64,000 nt of DNA from Thioalkalivibrio sp. ALJT (GTDB lineage: Bacteria; Pseudomonadota; Gammaproteobacteria; Ectothiorhodospirales; Ectothiorhodospiraceae). Position 1 is the stretch's first letter. Every line of letters begins with the position of its first letter. Under the pieces are notes generated by a model. That model was not told where the DNA came from, made no database searches, and worked only from the letters and a program-made list of their open reading frames with translations. The stretch spans positions 1-64,000 of the forward strand of contig NZ_KB907124.1 of the NCBI RefSeq assembly GCF_000381825.1, written 5' to 3'. Positions 6,779 to 50,709 of this stretch are shown here, piece by piece. The position numbers and the translations under genes were made by a program.

Positions 6779-6854
6779 TGGAGCCGGCGACAGGAGTCGA
6801 ACCTGCGACCCTCTGATTACAAATCAGATGCTCTACCAGCTGAGCTACACCGGC
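6779..6854 (-). tRNA. tRNA-Thr (anticodon TGT)
   Basis: On the minus strand the gene starts GCCGGTGTAGCTCAG and ends GCCGGCT followed by an encoded CCA. The acceptor arms GCCGG and CCGGC pair. The D-arm (GCTCAGCTGGTAGAGC) and the T-arm (GGTTCGACTCC) are canonical. The anticodon stem CTGAT/ATCAG encloses TTTGTAA, giving TGT for threonine. It lies 39 nt after tRNA-Leu and is probably co-transcribed with it. Confidence 0.96.
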
Positions 6855-6893
6855 CTGGTATGGATCAGGGTCTGATGGAAGACCCGAAATGGG

Positions 6894-6980
6894 TGGTGCC
6901 GGGAGCGAGAATCGAACTCGCACTCTGTTGCCAGAACCGGATTTTGAATCCGGCGCGTCTACCAGTTCCGCCATCCCGGC
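6894..6980 (-). tRNA. tRNA-Leu (anticodon CAA)
   Basis: An 87-nt class II tRNA read on the minus strand, starting GCCGGGATGGCGGAA and ending CCCGGCA plus an encoded CCA. The anticodon stem-loop reads CCGGATTCAAAATCCGG, giving CAA. A long variable arm follows, as expected for leucine tRNAs. The T-arm GAGTTCGATTCTC is intact. Confidence 0.96.
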
Positions 6981-34012: not shown

Positions 34013-34798
34013 TCAGGGCTTGCTGTGCAGGTCCAGGTCGAACAGGGTGTCGGCGCCCAGGCCGAAGATGCGGCAGGGCGGCCGCAGGGCCTGATCGAGG
34101 TGGGTGATCTCGGGCAGGCGAATGCCGGGGCGGCCGGAGCCAATCAGCATCGGGGCGATGGTCAGGTGCAGGCGGTCCAGGGTGTCGGCCTGCAGGAATC
34201 GTGAGACGGTCTGACCGCCGCCCTCGATCAGCAGGCGATTCAGACCGATGGCAGCCAGACGGTCGCGAATGACGGCCGGATCGAAGTGGCCATCATGCCC
34301 GGTGGGGAGCTCCATGCACTCGATCTGCGCGAGCCGGTTGCAGGGACCGCAGCCCGCTGCGTGCAGGACCAGTGTCTTCACTTCAGGATGCTGGTAGACG
34401 TGAGCCTCCGGGTGAATGCGTCCCTGCGGATCGAGGATGACGCGAACCGGGTTGTCCCCCTCGGCCTTGCGTACGGTCAGGCGCGGGTCGTCTGCGACCA
34501 CCGTGCTGGCGCCCACGACCACGGCATCTACCAGGGCACGTAGTCGGTGCAGGTGTTCGATGTCCTCGGGGCCGGTGACGTACTGCGAATGCCCGTTCTG
34601 CGTCGCGATACGGCCGTCGAGGCTTTGCGCCAGCTGGGCGACGGCAATCCGGGGGGCTTCGACGATCGGTCCGTACAGTTCCAGGAGATCGTGAGCCGCC
34701 GGGGCCAGGGGGCCGGGCAGCGGACAGCAACCGGGATCGGCACGCCGGGCCAGGAGCCAGCGCCAGGCCTGTTCCTCGGAGACGGGGTAGGCCGTCAT
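34013..34798 (-). CDS. Stand-alone RibD C-terminal (pyrimidine reductase) domain protein
   Basis: A 261-aa protein of the RibD_C/DHFR-like reductase family without the N-terminal deaminase zinc domain of RibD. Motifs are VAQLAQSLDGRIATQNGHSQYVTG, VVVGASTVVADDPRLTVR, NPVRVILDPQGRI and LLIEGGGQTVSRFL. In riboflavin synthesis this domain reduces the ribosylaminopyrimidine with NADPH; stand-alone versions also occur in other pathways. An ~50-residue N-terminal leader is not recognised. It is divergent from a RibA homologue and close to a creatininase-family gene, which suggests a specialised flavin- or pyrimidine-related route. Confidence 0.88.
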   Translation of the reverse strand: MTAYPVSEEQAWRWLLARRADPGCCPLPGPLAPAAHDLLELYGPIVEAPRIAVAQLAQSLDGRIATQNGHSQYVTGPEDIEHLHRLRALVDAVVVGASTVVADDPRLTVRKAEGDNPVRVILDPQGRIHPEAHVYQHPEVKTLVLHAAGCGPCNRLAQIECMELPTGHDGHFDPAVIRDRLAAIGLNRLLIEGGGQTVSRFLQADTLDRLHLTIAPMLIGSGRPGIRLPEITHLDQALRPPCRIFGLGADTLFDLDLHSKP

Positions 34799-34947
34799 GC
34801 CGCGAAAACCGGGGTTTCAGGACCGTGGCCGGCCACTTGCGGTAGGCTACGGGCCGATACGGGCCGTCCGGTCGGGGCGGTGAGGCGGGCCGGGGAATTC
34901 ACGGTTCGCGGACTGGTCATAAACAAAACTCCCTATGGAAACACCCG

Positions 34948-36093
34948 ATGCACAATGCCGATCGCGGGATCTTTGATCTTCGACGGGGCCATCCGGTCCT
35001 GGTCAGTGGTTCGCAATTGAGTGTACTCGTTGCGGCCGTAGAAGGTCTGACCCCGATTCTGCTGGATCGTCTGACCCACATGACCGGGTCGGGTCCTCGC
35101 CTGATTCTAACGGCGCACCGAGCCTCCGCAATGGGCTGGTCGGAACCCCTGGCCGAGGGCTGGGAGGGAGTGGCGCTGGAGTTTGCGCCGGATACCGAGC
35201 CGGAGGCGCTGTTCACCCTGGCAAGTGCGCCCGAGGCCTCGAACGAGGGTGCACAGCCGGATGCGGGCCTTGGCCATGCGACCGTCACCCGTGCCCTTCC
35301 GGCGGAGGTCGCGGCTTTGGAGCTGGCGCGGGCGGGTCGGTTGCTGCCGGCCGTGGTGGCCACGCCGGTCCCCGATCCGGTGCCCGAGGCGATTACCTCG
35401 GCCCTGTCCGACGGCATGTTCCTGGATGTGGATGAACAGGAGGCGCGTGCCGTATCCGAGCATCCGCGTCTCGAGCTGGCCTATGTCAGCGAGGCCCCGG
35501 TGCCGCTTGCGGATGCCCCGGTCACGCGCTTCATGCTGTTCCGCGAGGGGAACGGCATCCTGGAACATGTGGCGGTGCTGATCGGCGAGCCGCGCGACTG
35601 GCCGGATGCGGTGCCGGTGCGGCTGCACTCGGCCTGCCTGACGGGGGATTTGTTCGGGAGCCTGCGGTGCGACTGTGGCGACCAGCTGCGCCTGGGGGTG
35701 AAGACGATCAACGCATCCGGCGGCGGGGTGTTGCTGTATCTGGCCCAGGAGGGTCGCGGGATCGGTCTGGCCAACAAGCTGCGAGCCTATACCATGCAGT
35801 CGGCCGGGCTGGACACGATCGACTCCGACTGCCAGCTGGGCTTCGAGGCGGATGGCCGGCGTTACGACGCGGCGGTGGAGATGCTCGAGTTTCTCGGTAT
35901 CGACAGCGTGCGCCTGCTGACCAACAATCCTGGCAAGATCGAGGCGCTGCGCGCGGGTGGAATCGACGTGGTAGCGCGCGAGCCGGTACACGGCAAGCTG
36001 AACCCGCATAATCTGCGCTATCTTAGTACCAAGGCCGACCGCGGTGGGCACTGGCTGCAGGAGTTGTTGGCCTCCGAGGCCGAGCGCGGGTAG
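34948..36093 (+). CDS. GTP cyclohydrolase II fused to a degenerate RibB-like domain
   Basis: A 381-aa protein. The C-terminal ~190 residues are a well-preserved GTP cyclohydrolase II: zinc cysteines in CLTGDLFGSLRCDC, QEGRGIGLANKLRAY with the Tyr equivalent to E. coli Tyr105, and LLTNNPGKIEAL. It opens GTP to the diaminopyrimidine of riboflavin synthesis. The N-terminal ~180 residues look like a decayed DHBP synthase: DLRRGHPVLV, LLDRLTHM and LELARAGRLLPAVVAT echo RibB, but the catalytic acidic loop (DDEDRENEGD in RibB) and the threonine-rich middle section are missing. No FMN riboswitch was recognised in the 149-nt divergent gap. Confidence 0.9.
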   Translation: MHNADRGIFDLRRGHPVLVSGSQLSVLVAAVEGLTPILLDRLTHMTGSGPRLILTAHRASAMGWSEPLAEGWEGVALEFAPDTEPEALFTLASAPEASNEGAQPDAGLGHATVTRALPAEVAALELARAGRLLPAVVATPVPDPVPEAITSALSDGMFLDVDEQEARAVSEHPRLELAYVSEAPVPLADAPVTRFMLFREGNGILEHVAVLIGEPRDWPDAVPVRLHSACLTGDLFGSLRCDCGDQLRLGVKTINASGGGVLLYLAQEGRGIGLANKLRAYTMQSAGLDTIDSDCQLGFEADGRRYDAAVEMLEFLGIDSVRLLTNNPGKIEALRAGGIDVVAREPVHGKLNPHNLRYLSTKADRGGHWLQELLASEAERG

Positions 36094-36171
36094 CGCTACA
36101 CCGACTCATTGGCGGCGTTGCGGCCTGTCCGTGCGAGCGCTGGCAGACAGGCTGGTGCCCCGGTCTGCGGG

Positions 36172-36975
36172 TCAGGGCGCGAGTTGCCCCAGATCAAAGC
36201 CGGCCGTGTCGCGAATCGCGGCGGCCAGCGATTCGGCATAGTGGGCGACCAGTGCTCGGCCCAGCTTCTCTGTGGCGGCGCCGGCGTTGCCGACCACCCC
36301 GGCTGGATTCAGATCGCGCGCCATCCAGGCAAAGGCGACCCGACCCTCGGGTTCCAGGTGTTCGAGTGTGTCGGCCAGGGTCTCGCCCAGCGACGCTGTG
36401 TTCGCAGCCGCATCAAGATGCACCCGATCCGGTGCCAGTGCCAGCATCATGGCCGTCTCGATCTGGCCCCCGTGCAGACCATGGCGCTGTTCCCGTGCGG
36501 GGATGCCCAGGTCATCCGGCAGCGGTTGCAGGAAATAGTGATGCTTGGCGACCAGCAGGCCCTGCTGCTGTCGCAGTTCGAGGGCGGCAAGGTCGCAGAT
36601 GGCGGTGTTGCCACCATGACTGTTGACCAGCAGCAGGCGACGGAATCCGCTGGAGGCCACGCTGTGACCGAGGTCGCGCAGGGTGTCCAGGGCGGTCTCG
36701 GGGCGCAGGGTCAGGGTGCCGGGAAACCCCGTATGTTCGTTGCTGGTGGCGACACACATGGGCGGCAGGATTAACCGCGCAGGTTCTTCGCCAAGCCTCG
36801 CGTGGGCGGCGCCCAGCAGCCCCAGCCCGATGCGATGATCGGTCTCAAGCGGTAAATGCGGGCCGTGCTGTTCGATCGCCGACAACGGCAGGATCGCGAC
36901 CGCGCCACGTCCGGCACGTGCGGCAATCTCGCGGCTGGTTAGCGTTTGCCACCAGGGGAGGGATTCGGTATCCAT
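36172..36975 (-). CDS. Creatininase-family metal-dependent amidohydrolase
   Basis: A 267-aa protein of the creatininase fold. Metal-binding motifs are visible: LPLSAIEQHGPHLPLETDH, LVNSHGGNTAICD and HGLHGGQIETAMML. The family includes creatininase, the mycofactocin peptidase MftE and the archaeal deformylase ArfB of flavin/F420 synthesis. With a GTP cyclohydrolase II and a RibD-type reductase next door, an ArfB-like hydrolysis on a pyrimidine or flavin-related amide is the most attractive hypothesis, but it is unproven. The start MDTESLPWW at 36975 avoids a non-conserved upstream extension. Confidence 0.85.
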   Translation of the reverse strand: MDTESLPWWQTLTSREIAARAGRGAVAILPLSAIEQHGPHLPLETDHRIGLGLLGAAHARLGEEPARLILPPMCVATSNEHTGFPGTLTLRPETALDTLRDLGHSVASSGFRRLLLVNSHGGNTAICDLAALELRQQQGLLVAKHHYFLQPLPDDLGIPAREQRHGLHGGQIETAMMLALAPDRVHLDAAANTASLGETLADTLEHLEPEGRVAFAWMARDLNPAGVVGNAGAATEKLGRALVAHYAESLAAAIRDTAGFDLGQLAP

Positions 36976-37006: not shown

Positions 37007-37783
37007 TCAAGGGCACAGGCGTGCGTAGAGGTCCCCGGAGCCGAGCCGCTCGCCGTGTGCCTCGAGCCAGGTGAGGATTTCGGTGCTGCTTTGCCAGTCG
37101 TGGAATTCAAAGGTGCGCCGTTCGCCCCGGATCAGGTTGAACTCGTATGTGCCGAGGCTGGCGAGCTGTTGCAGGCAGTCGGCAGTCACCTCCAGGGCAC
37201 CGGCTACGAACTCGAAGGACAGGGCCGGTATCGGGTGGCTCAGTCCGCGCAGCACCTCTGCCTCCAGCCCCTCCACATCGATCTTGCAGAAACGGGGTGT
37301 ACCGTACTCCTCGATCAGCTGGTCCAGGGTGATCATTGGCACTGTGATCTCGTCATCCCAGCGTACGTGGCGGAAGCTGCGATTGCGTTGCCCGAGTGAG
37401 CGCACCCAGGACCGCGAGGCGGAGGAGACCGTGGGGTGGCGGCGGCTCACCTGCAGGCGCGCGCTGCCGGGCGCTGGGCCGGCGGCCTCGCGGCGTATCG
37501 CGATACCGGGCCGGCCACGTACCGCCCGGCGCAGCCACGGCAGCAGCTGGGGCTGGGGCTCCAGGGCGATCACGCGCGCCCCGAGGGCCGCGAATGCGCG
37601 GGTGCGGTCGCCCACATGCGCTCCAATATCGAAGACCAGGTCACCGGCATGGACGAACGGGCCATACATGCGCTGCAGACCGCGCTGGCGCCCCGGGCGG
37701 CGATAGATGAACAGAGAGCGCAGGACGCCGATGGTGCGGCCGATCCAGGCGCTCCCGGCTGCAGTGGGCGGACGGATACTCAT
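37007..37783 (-). CDS. FkbM-family methyltransferase
   Basis: A 258-aa AdoMet-dependent methyltransferase with the FkbM pattern: DLVFDIGAHVGDRTRAFAALGARVIALEPQP for AdoMet binding and MITLDQLIEEYGTPRFCKIDVEGLEAEVLRG for the core. FkbM proteins methylate hydroxyl groups of sugars or small molecules; the substrate here is not identifiable. It lies 31 nt upstream of the creatininase gene on the same strand and may be co-transcribed, with no obvious functional link. Confidence 0.88.
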   Translation of the reverse strand: MSIRPPTAAGSAWIGRTIGVLRSLFIYRRPGRQRGLQRMYGPFVHAGDLVFDIGAHVGDRTRAFAALGARVIALEPQPQLLPWLRRAVRGRPGIAIRREAAGPAPGSARLQVSRRHPTVSSASRSWVRSLGQRNRSFRHVRWDDEITVPMITLDQLIEEYGTPRFCKIDVEGLEAEVLRGLSHPIPALSFEFVAGALEVTADCLQQLASLGTYEFNLIRGERRTFEFHDWQSSTEILTWLEAHGERLGSGDLYARLCP

Positions 37784-47738: not shown

Positions 47739-47930
47739 CGGCTTCTCCTAGTTGGATAAACCCACCATGATCGGGGGCATGTAAAGGCAGCGTCAAGTAA
47801 CGCTACTGGCAGCATTGATGCCGGCATCGACTCCTTCCGGGGTTCTGCTATGTATCATGGAGCAATACCGGTTCCGGTTCCGCGCGGAGCGGGAAACGGG
47901 GGCGTGCAAGGATGGCGAAAAGGGATATGC

Positions 47931-49274
47931 ATGAAGATTGACTGTTTCAAGGCCTATGACGTGCGGGGCCGGGTGCCGGACCAGCTCAACCCAGAGGTGG
48001 TACACGCCATCGGTCGCGCCTTTGCCGAGGAGATCCGGCCCGGTCGCACGGTCGTTGGCTACGATATCCGCCTGTCCAGCCCGGAACTGGCCGGTGCCCT
48101 GACGGAAGGGCTTACCGCGGGTGGCAGCGATGTGGCGGATATCGGCATGTGTGGTACCGAGGAGGTCTATTTTGCCACAGCGCATTACGGGGCTGGCGGC
48201 GGGATCATGGTCACGGCCAGTCACAATCCGCTGGATTACAACGGCTTGAAGCTGGTGCGCAGCGAGGCTCGGCCGATCAGCGGCGATTCCGGCCTGCAGG
48301 CGATTCGTGACCGGGCCGAGCGGGGGGATTTCCGGCCCATGCCCAATGGGCAGGTGCGGCGGCTGGACCACCGGGCGGATTACATCGAGCGATTGCTGAG
48401 TTCGGTGGATCGTTCCGTACTGCCTTCGTTGAAGATTGTGGTGAATCCGGGCAACGGTGGCGCCGGGCCGGTGCTGGAGGCACTGGAGCCGCATCTCCCG
48501 TTCGAGCTGATCCGGGTCAATTTCGAGTCGGACGGGCATTTCCCCAATGGCATCCCCAACCCGTTGCTGCCGGAGAACCGTGCCGCCACCGCCGATGCGG
48601 TGCGGGCGCATGGCGCGGATCTGGGCGTGGCCTGGGACGGGGACTTCGACCGCTGCTTTCTGTTCGATGCCGAAGGCACCTTCATCGAGGGTTACTATAT
48701 CGTGGGGCTCCTGGCGCAGGCCTGTCTGGAGGGCCATGCGGGCGAGCGTATCGTCCATGACCCGCGCCTGACCTGGAATACCATCGAGATGGTGGAGGCC
48801 GCCGGCGGGGAGCCGATCCAGTCCAAGACCGGGCACGCCTTCATGAAGGAACGCCTGCGCAAGGAAGACGCGATCTACGGCGGCGAGATGAGCGCCCATC
48901 ATTACTTCCGGGACTTCGACTACTGCGACACCGGCATGCTGCCGTGGCTACGGGTGGTGGAACTGATGGGCCGCCGCGAGCAGTCGCTGGGGGCTATGGT
49001 CGCCGAGCGCATGGCGCGGTTTCCTTGCAGTGGCGAGCTCAACTTCGAGGTCGAGGATGCGGCCGCTGCGACCGCCCGTGTGCTTGACGCGTATGCCGGC
49101 GCCGGTGGGCGCCTCGACCGTACGGACGGCGTGAGCGTCGAATTCGCCGACTGGCGCTTCAATCTGCGCAGTTCCAACACCGAACCGCTGCTGCGCCTGA
49201 ACGTGGAGACCCGTGCCGACGCGGCCCTGCTGCGGCAACGGGTCGATGAGATCTCGCGACGGATACGGGGGTGA
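47931..49274 (+). CDS. manB: Phosphomannomutase
   Basis: A 447-aa alpha-D-phosphohexomutase that interconverts mannose-6-phosphate and mannose-1-phosphate. The phosphoserine loop is TASHNPLDYNG, the metal loop DGDFDRCFLFD, the sugar-binding loop GGEMSAHHYFRD and the phosphate loop RSSNTEPLLRLN. It starts MKIDCFKAYDVRG (ATG 47931, with AAAAGGGA upstream). It is the first gene of the GDP-fucose operon; manC follows after 4 nt. Confidence 0.95.
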   Translation: MKIDCFKAYDVRGRVPDQLNPEVVHAIGRAFAEEIRPGRTVVGYDIRLSSPELAGALTEGLTAGGSDVADIGMCGTEEVYFATAHYGAGGGIMVTASHNPLDYNGLKLVRSEARPISGDSGLQAIRDRAERGDFRPMPNGQVRRLDHRADYIERLLSSVDRSVLPSLKIVVNPGNGGAGPVLEALEPHLPFELIRVNFESDGHFPNGIPNPLLPENRAATADAVRAHGADLGVAWDGDFDRCFLFDAEGTFIEGYYIVGLLAQACLEGHAGERIVHDPRLTWNTIEMVEAAGGEPIQSKTGHAFMKERLRKEDAIYGGEMSAHHYFRDFDYCDTGMLPWLRVVELMGRREQSLGAMVAERMARFPCSGELNFEVEDAAAATARVLDAYAGAGGRLDRTDGVSVEFADWRFNLRSSNTEPLLRLNVETRADAALLRQRVDEISRRIRG

Positions 49275-49278
49275 GGCG

Positions 49279-50709
49279 ATGACCAAGGAACACGTGCGGG
49301 ATCACTTGCAGCCGGTGATCCTGGCCGGTGGCTCGGGGACGCGTCTGTGGCCGGTTTCGCGCAGTCGATATCCCAAGCAGTTCCTCCCGCTGGTGGGGGA
49401 CGAGACCCTGCTGCAGCAGACCGCACGCCGTCTGGAGGGACTTGGCGGCGAGCCGCCTTTGGTGCTGGCCAATGTGGAACACCGCTTTCTCGCCGCCGAG
49501 CAGTTACGCGCGACAGGCGTCACCGGGGCGCGCATCCTGCTGGAACCCGAGGGCCGCAATACGGCACCGGCGATCGCGCTGGCTGCCCTGCAGGCACAGG
49601 AACAGGGGCATGATCCGTTATTGCTGGTTCTTGCGGCGGACCATCACATCGGTGACCCCGAGGCTTTCCGCACCGCGGTCGAGCGTGCGGTCGAACTGGC
49701 CGCTTCCGGCCATCTGGTCACCTTCGGGATTGTTCCTACCGCGGCGGAGACCGGGTACGGCTACATCCAGCAGGGTGAGTCACTGGGTCCGGCCGGCGCC
49801 CGCGTGGCGCGTTTTGTCGAAAAGCCGGATGCGGCGACCGCACGGGCCTATATCGAGCAGGGGGATTACCTCTGGAACAGCGGCATGTTCGTGTTCCGGG
49901 CGTCACGGTACCTAGACGAGCTCGAGCGTTTCGAGCCCGGTATTGTGGCTGCCTGCAGGGCCGCCCTGGAACAGTCGCGGGACGATCTCGACTTCCTGCG
50001 GGTGGACCCCGACGCGTTTGCGGCGGCCCCCAATATCTCGGTCGACTACGCGGTGATGGAGCGCACGGAACTCGCGGCGGTGACGCCGCTGGCGGCGGGG
50101 TGGAGCGATATCGGGTCGTGGTCCGCGCTGGCGGGTGTGCGTGGTACGGACAGCCGGGGTAATACCCTGCGCGGCGACTGCCTTCTGGAGGACAGCGAGG
50201 GGTGCGTGGTGGATGCGGACGGCCTGCTGGTGGCCGGTATTGGCTTGCAGAACCTGGCGGTGGTGGCGACACGCGATGCGGTCCTGGTGGCCGATCGTCA
50301 CCGGGTGCAGGATGTGAAACGCATCGTCGAGCGTCTGCAGGCGGCGGAACGTAGCGAGCACGTGGATCACACGGTGGTGTACCGCCCCTGGGGCTGTTAT
50401 GAGTCCATCGACAGCGGGAGCCGCTATCAGGTCAAGCGCATCACGGTAAAGCCGGGGGCGCGCCTGTCGCTGCAGATGCATCACCACCGGGCGGAGCACT
50501 GGGTGGTGGTCAGCGGTACGGCCCGTGTCACCAACGGTGAACAGAACTACCTGGTCACCGAGAATGAGTCGACCTTTATCCCGATCGGGCAGGTGCACTG
50601 CCTGGAGAACCCTGGCGCGCTGCCGCTGGAGTTGATCGAGGTGCAGTCCGGCAGTTACCTGGGCGAGGACGACATCGTGCGCCTGGAGGATATGTACGGG
50701 CGCGCCTGA
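49279..50709 (+). CDS. manC: Mannose-1-phosphate guanylyltransferase / mannose-6-phosphate isomerase
   Basis: A 476-aa bifunctional enzyme. The N-terminal nucleotidyltransferase carries VILAGGSGTRLWPVSR and FVEKP and makes GDP-mannose. The C-terminal cupin (about 350-470) has YRPWGCYESID and LQMHHHRAEHWVVVSGTA, the type II phosphomannose isomerase region. It feeds Gmd, encoded 87 nt downstream. The ATG at 49279 follows GTGAGGCG, 4 nt after manB. Confidence 0.96.
   Translation: MTKEHVRDHLQPVILAGGSGTRLWPVSRSRYPKQFLPLVGDETLLQQTARRLEGLGGEPPLVLANVEHRFLAAEQLRATGVTGARILLEPEGRNTAPAIALAALQAQEQGHDPLLLVLAADHHIGDPEAFRTAVERAVELAASGHLVTFGIVPTAAETGYGYIQQGESLGPAGARVARFVEKPDAATARAYIEQGDYLWNSGMFVFRASRYLDELERFEPGIVAACRAALEQSRDDLDFLRVDPDAFAAAPNISVDYAVMERTELAAVTPLAAGWSDIGSWSALAGVRGTDSRGNTLRGDCLLEDSEGCVVDADGLLVAGIGLQNLAVVATRDAVLVADRHRVQDVKRIVERLQAAERSEHVDHTVVYRPWGCYESIDSGSRYQVKRITVKPGARLSLQMHHHRAEHWVVVSGTARVTNGEQNYLVTENESTFIPIGQVHCLENPGALPLELIEVQSGSYLGEDDIVRLEDMYGRA

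Follow-up and report, generated by a model that had tools for sequence, protein, structure and literature searches.

To our knowledge, few pathways branch off riboflavin synthesis, those of the F420/Fo, toxoflavin and roseoflavin types. In Streptomyces, a variant of GTP cyclohydrolase II (GCHII), SCO6655, reportedly releases a formylated pyrimidine, and the position deciding whether the deformylated product is released (here called the switch position) we take to be Y105 in the Escherichia coli enzyme and Met120 in SCO6655. We know of no activity for the Streptomyces PTPS homologue SCO6650. A creatininase-family deformylase serving riboflavin synthesis, BrbF, has been proven in Sinorhizobium and Brucella (PMC9478397). 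Here we analyze a stretch of 64,000 nucleotides (the window) from contig 4 of the 2.66-Mb genome of Thioalkalivibrio sp. ALJT, rated 100% complete, which carries three neighboring genes coding for a stand-alone RibD_C-type pyrimidine reductase, a GCHII joined to a RibB-like domain, and a creatininase-family hydrolase. We conclude, with a probability of about 0.68, that this trio and an adjacent FkbM-family methyltransferase gene form one half of a specialized biosynthetic locus of about ten genes, which would start at the first step of riboflavin synthesis and leave it before deamination, and whose GCHII would do double duty.

A conserved locus of about ten genes, split in two in the clade of the window

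A RibD_C profile search recovered 80 loci in Ectothiorhodospiraceae, Halomonadaceae, Gemmatimonadota, Acidobacteriota, Alphaproteobacteria and one Streptomyces. Seventy-one loci were surveyed (a few from Thioalkalivibrio metagenome-assembled genomes), and 42 lying outside the Thioalkalivibrio isolates had full flanks. Next to RibD_C, these 42 contain within 10 kb a PTPS homologue (42), a family-4 glycosyltransferase (42), a zinc-type alcohol dehydrogenase (41), an S-adenosylmethionine-type (SAM) methyltransferase (40), the creatininase (38), a CDP-alcohol phosphatidyltransferase (37), a flippase-like LPG_synthase_TM protein (34), the GCHII of the cluster type (W-type; 33) and the FkbM methyltransferase (30), counts that measure co-localization and not co-inheritance, all loci having been recruited through RibD_C. 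The chance of finding a given single gene copy within 10 kb in a 4-Mb genome is about 0.5%. The initial annotation of the window, made from the sequence alone, had read the trio as serving a specialized pathway and had proposed its conservation as a check; the recurrence of both creatininase and cluster GCHII within this larger set supports that reading. Both the anatomy and the conservation of the locus are strongly supported. No description of the cluster was found in the literature searched, and a review of COG0720 is silent on creatininase, RibD and glycosyl genes (PMC5041015).

The genes opgG and opgH and a sulfatase-like membrane gene often adjoin the cluster, and single open frames join some members or neighbors: OpgH with GCHII in six Gemmatimonadota loci (L131, L154, L158, L164, L168, L197; about 1000-1100 codons), a possible fusion, and glycosyltransferase with methyltransferase in nine loci, mostly of Halomonas/Vreelandella (L143, L161, L173, L175, L179, L182, L183, L186, L193). 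Such open-frame fusions support a functional linkage of the genes. The GCHII gene lies between those for creatininase and RibD_C in 28 of the 32 loci with both. In other Thioalkalivibrio, creatininase and RibD_C adjoin each other within a longer cluster. Data from the genus had suggested a late insertion of GCHII into a creatininase-RibD_C pair, an idea dropped in view of the creatininase-GCHII-RibD_C order of Halomonas, Gemmatimonadota and Acidobacteriota; it is more likely that the other Thioalkalivibrio clade has lost its cluster GCHII.

In the clade of the window, the cluster is split in two. The second half lies on contig 2 (83.9-88.3 kb) and consists of genes for a methyltransferase, a glycosyltransferase, the PTPS homologue, a dehydrogenase and a CDP-alcohol transferase, so that this genome has, spread over two loci, the full set seen in clusters of the SCO6650 type (PTPS, glycosyltransferase, methyltransferase, alcohol dehydrogenase, CDP-alcohol transferase, RibD_C, GCHII and creatininase). 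A flippase-like gene was not found adjoining either half, no genome-wide search having been made for it. In seven Thioalkalivibrio genomes (G007, G013, G001, G005, G021, G040, G042) the FkbM-creatininase pair lies apart from RibD_C-GCHII, having moved together with M1-peptidase-like and, in several cases, also ChaN-type neighbors (L077-L080, L087).

Organization and domain architecture of the window genes

All three genes are present where the initial annotation had placed them (Table 1), and the ATG at 36975 that it gave for the creatininase is rated the likely start. They do not form a single operon, RibD_C and GCHII being divergent (149-bp gap) and GCHII and creatininase convergent (78-bp gap). 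The FkbM methyltransferase gene, absent from that annotation, lies 31 bp upstream of the creatininase gene on the same strand. It is part of a conserved unit with it, since the order FkbM-creatininase(-RibD_C) is kept across the genus and FkbM recurs in the full-flank relatives.

Table 1 Genes of the window half of the cluster and the intergenic region between the divergent pair, in window positions
Feature	Position	Strand	Evidence
RibD_C-type pyrimidine reductase, stand-alone, 261 aa, without deaminase domain	34013..34798	-	PF01872
Intergenic region between the divergent RibD_C and GCHII genes	34799..34947	no strand	ORF coordinates, Rfam
W-type (cluster-type) GCHII, 381 aa: predicted dead RibB-fold N-domain (residues 1 to ~175) and intact GCHII domain	34948..36093	+	PF00925, motif comparison, AlphaFold/Foldseek, tree
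Creatininase-family metal hydrolase, 267 aa, candidate deformylase	36172..36975	-	PF02633, tree, fold
FkbM-family methyltransferase	37007..37783	-	TIGR01444 92 bits, PF05050 63 bits

The GCHII domain (PF00925, E=7e-50, residues 182-345), when aligned with E. coli RibA, shows the zinc motif HSACLTGDLFGSLRCDC with its three zinc cysteines, the QEGRGIG motif and the switch tyrosine, Y281 in KLRAY, which is equivalent to E. coli Y105 and invariant in 27 aligned W-type proteins. The ~170 N-terminal residues have no Pfam match; however, the AlphaFold model of the protein (mean pLDDT 86) places them by Foldseek close to RibB/DHBP synthase structures (1pvw, E=4.7e-6; 7uf5, E=1.8e-5; TMt 0.5-0.6; RibB-fold matches at E about 1e-5 to 1e-4), and a motif comparison with the RibBA encoded on contig 11 of the same genome finds the acidic catalytic loop of RibB, DDEDRENEGD, to be missing. 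The initial annotation had described a GCHII with intact zinc cysteines and catalytic tyrosine, fused to a RibB-like domain without this loop; the motifs and the predicted structure bear this out, and "RibBA with a dead RibB half" is, as judged from the model, structurally correct. In a phylogeny of the GCHII domain, the W-type proteins, including that of the window, branch separately from canonical RibA, RibBA and the Streptomyces type as a clade of their own (support 94/97, or 100/98 when the most distant row is left out).

The reductase consists of RibD_C only (PF01872, E=5.9e-39, residues 53-227), without the N-terminal deaminase domain and zinc motifs of a bifunctional RibD, as had been noted from the sequence. 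Its nearest relative of solved structure, 6p8c, is annotated as 2,5-diamino-6-ribosylamino-pyrimidinone 5'-phosphate reductase; the motifs LDG, DDPxLTVR and EGGG are invariant among 11 genus members, and the protein matches named Thioalkalivibrio strains at up to 81%.

Elsewhere in the window, 11-14 kb from the trio, lie phosphomannomutase-like and ManC-like genes (47850-50703), the latter matching at 63% the ManC that adjoins the cluster of Halomonas korlensis.

The creatininase and the fate of the formyl group

The assignment of the third protein to the creatininase family stands on its Pfam match (PF02633, E=8.5e-63), on its fold, its best solved-structure matches being creatininases (including by Foldseek), and on its metal-ligand pattern, E35, H37, D46, H120 and E173 being invariant among 22 relatives. 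It is the only member of its family in the genome, and it groups with other cluster creatininases in one clade (100/99). A UBA4456 member of the Gemmatimonadales (G061) has 14 creatininase-family matches in one 3-Mb genome.

Several observations weigh against the reading of the locus given above. The creatininase scores 20.2 bits against the ArfB model NF033501, for a cut-off of 180; it falls outside the clade of Streptomyces cluster creatininases; and the switch tyrosine is kept in all W-type GCHIIs examined outside Streptomyces, that of the window included, so that, strictly, no additional deformylase should be required. No creatininase was seen in one Rhizobiaceae cluster (L277), and the recruitment of all loci through RibD_C, mentioned above, belongs here as well.

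It is therefore possible, though less likely than not, that within the same cluster the creatininase is not a deformylase and hydrolyzes a later amide, cyclic amide or peptide-like bond, as annotated for MftE. Its best curated model is indeed MftE (TIGR03964; 112.9 bits, below the cut-off of 172), far above ArfB, and those genus members that have a different intact GCHII, which also keeps the tyrosine, still retain the creatininase. In contrast, a proven pyrimidine deformylase, BrbF, belongs to the creatininase family (PMC9478397), ArfB is of a related kind, and Streptomyces clusters pair the creatininase with a GCHII of the methionine type. There, GCHII adjoins a creatininase in 16 clusters, and the switch residue is methionine in all eight in which the extracted motif reaches it; a deformylase would be needed in these clusters if the GCHII product stays formylated. 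Moreover, GCHII and creatininase appear to have been recruited separately into one kind of cluster in Streptomyces and in the other bacteria, which suggests that both are needed. The initial annotation held that the retained tyrosine weakens a strict ArfB model: the tyrosine does argue for a deformylated product, yet the Streptomyces pairing keeps a formamidase role alive. On balance, these comparisons tilt somewhat towards a deformylase function for the creatininase, despite the retained tyrosine.

Relationship to housekeeping riboflavin synthesis

A housekeeping set outside the window, predicted by the initial annotation, is present on contig 11, which carries ribD, ribE, ribBA and ribH. Both the deaminase and the reductase half of RibD are motif-intact, and so is the RibB loop of RibBA (L005:6392-7498), but the GCHII half of the latter lacks all three zinc cysteines (the equivalents of C54, C65 and C67) and the QEGR motif. 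Only two GCHII genes occur in the genome, and the window copy alone is intact. With no further GCHII in the genome to make up for the dead half of the contig 11 RibBA, riboflavin synthesis very probably draws on the window GCHII as well. RibD_C, in contrast, is not the sole copy for its step, the genome having another RibD.

The distribution of GCHII types across the genus fits with one indispensable GCHII per genome: among 30 genomes, the W-type occurs in 16, a different intact type in seven and both in none (exact test P=0.002, a descriptive value only, as the genomes are related), and the seven genomes with neither are fragmented drafts of at least 240 contigs. Of 19 relatives searched outside the genus, 17 (from Halomonadaceae, Gemmatimonadota, Acidobacteriota, Ectothiorhodospiraceae and Streptomyces) keep a canonical, intact RibA or RibBA in addition to the cluster GCHII, among them Halomonas korlensis, Chromohalobacter and members of the Gemmatimonadales. 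In Inquilinus, RibA is likewise intact but the cluster has no GCHII, and in an Endozoicomonas genome, as in Thioalkalivibrio, the cluster-type GCHII seems to be the only intact one. The earlier proposal of a pathway running in parallel with the housekeeping rib genes consequently holds for the family at large but not for this genome. To judge from these motif comparisons, Thioalkalivibrio is very probably an exception in which the specialized GCHII also carries out the housekeeping step, which may have been a take-over after the loss of a canonical RibA. For annotation this is a warning, the accessory-looking gene being, in this genus, the only intact GCHII and the canonical-looking RibBA being dead in that half.

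That the trio simply consists of housekeeping riboflavin genes, with the window GCHII as RibA, RibD_C as a spare reductase and the creatininase as a deformylase of the BrbF type, would agree with the window GCHII being the sole intact copy and with BrbF being an established bacterial creatininase-family riboflavin deformylase (PMC9478397). It is nonetheless unlikely, given that a full-length, motif-intact RibD is already present, that the trio is tied to PTPS, glycosyltransferase, methyltransferase and alcohol dehydrogenase genes in bacteria with a separate intact RibA or RibBA, and that the cluster PTPS marker is patchy, being found in 21 of 370 genomes of the class, unlike a housekeeping pathway. 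A mere coincidence of unrelated genes, through chance or local synteny, agrees with the alternating strands and with the displaced creatininase-FkbM pair in part of the genus but is highly improbable, being contradicted by the co-localization counts set against the ~0.5% expectation, by a gene set common to Proteobacteria, Gemmatimonadota and Acidobacteriota with related sets in Streptomyces, by the open-frame fusions, and by a GCHII and a creatininase that Streptomyces seems to have recruited separately.

No FMN riboswitch, which would have hinted at regulation of the housekeeping kind, was found in the window or in the contig 11 rib locus, the only Rfam matches in the window being two tRNA genes (6782-6980, minus strand). 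The contig 11 RibBA would probably be called bifunctional by automatic annotation. The spacer between ribBA and ribH is unusual in its length of ~830 bp (L005:7498-8333), and two open reading frames on opposite strands within it have translations that start nearly alike (MLWLA[LM]VR), suggesting a repeated element.

A proposed route from GTP

For the specialized locus, we infer the following substrates, order of reactions and type of product. GCHII would open GTP, and the creatininase-family enzyme would most likely remove the formyl group or guarantee its removal; RibD_C would then convert the ribosyl into a ribityl group, giving 2,5-diamino-6-ribitylamino-pyrimidinone phosphate. This pyrimidine, or a pterin, would next be handled by the PTPS-fold protein. 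The latter matches SCO6650 (PDB 3d7j) with E=1.4e-52, but it lacks the CxxxHGH that characterizes QueD-type enzymes (PMC5041015), reading PAQRLHGA instead, so that it probably does not catalyze the PTPS reaction. The other genes point to glycosylation, methylation and formation of a phosphodiester to a polyol or lipid: the alcohol dehydrogenase, the glycosyltransferase, the two methyltransferases and the CDP-alcohol transferase, joined in most relatives by the flippase-like protein, would yield a compound that carries sugar and is probably linked to the membrane or exported. The same GCHII would also supply riboflavin in the window's genome, the contig 11 RibBA having a dead GCHII half.

More tentatively, the locus may represent a so far unrecognized pathway shared across phyla, leading from the first riboflavin intermediate to ribityl-pyrimidines or pterins of a new class, glycosylated and linked to lipid or glucan (a cofactor, pigment or envelope component), and having taken over the housekeeping cyclohydrolase step in some Thioalkalivibrio. 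With the locus present in full or related form in four bacterial phyla and with a defined starting chemistry, it offers a directly testable way towards a new natural product or cofactor.

Comparison with known systems

The individual components of the locus each resemble a described system and depart from it. An archaeal-type stand-alone pyrimidine reductase (TIGR01508) likewise lacks a deaminase, but the window RibD_C stays below the cut-off of that model (112 vs 186 bits), and a full RibD is present elsewhere in the genome. The full-length architecture of the window GCHII, with its extra N-terminal domain, is common to the already known PRK08815/NF006456 RibA type of NCBIfam; however, the protein scores below the family cut-off (344.8 vs 464 bits) and is here embedded in a specialized cluster. 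The two-domain RibB of Acinetobacter baumannii, RibBX (PDB 6mnz), which is also among the Foldseek matches of the window GCHII model, resembles in its layout the contig 11 RibBA with its dead GCHII half; in the window protein it is the opposite half that is dead, RibB being lost and GCHII intact. BrbF and ArfB, deformylases of the first riboflavin pyrimidine, share the fold family of the window creatininase and catalyze a reaction plausible for it, although the latter lies far below the ArfB model and is partnered with a GCHII of the tyrosine type.

The closest counterpart is the SCO6650 cluster of Streptomyces, whose PTPS homologue belongs to the same family; Streptomyces relatives of that homologue sit with genes for GCHII, creatininase, glycosyltransferase, methyltransferase, alcohol dehydrogenase, CDP-alcohol transferase and flippase-like proteins, and in some cases RibD_C. 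The Streptomyces GCHII differs in having methionine instead of tyrosine, in lacking the RibB-like N-domain and in its ancestry, being closest to Streptomyces RibBA, and the creatininase there represents a lineage separate from the window-type cluster creatininases. Two older observations from Streptomyces, the GCHII reported to halt at the formylated product and the PTPS homologue SCO6650, gain a context from the cluster described here.

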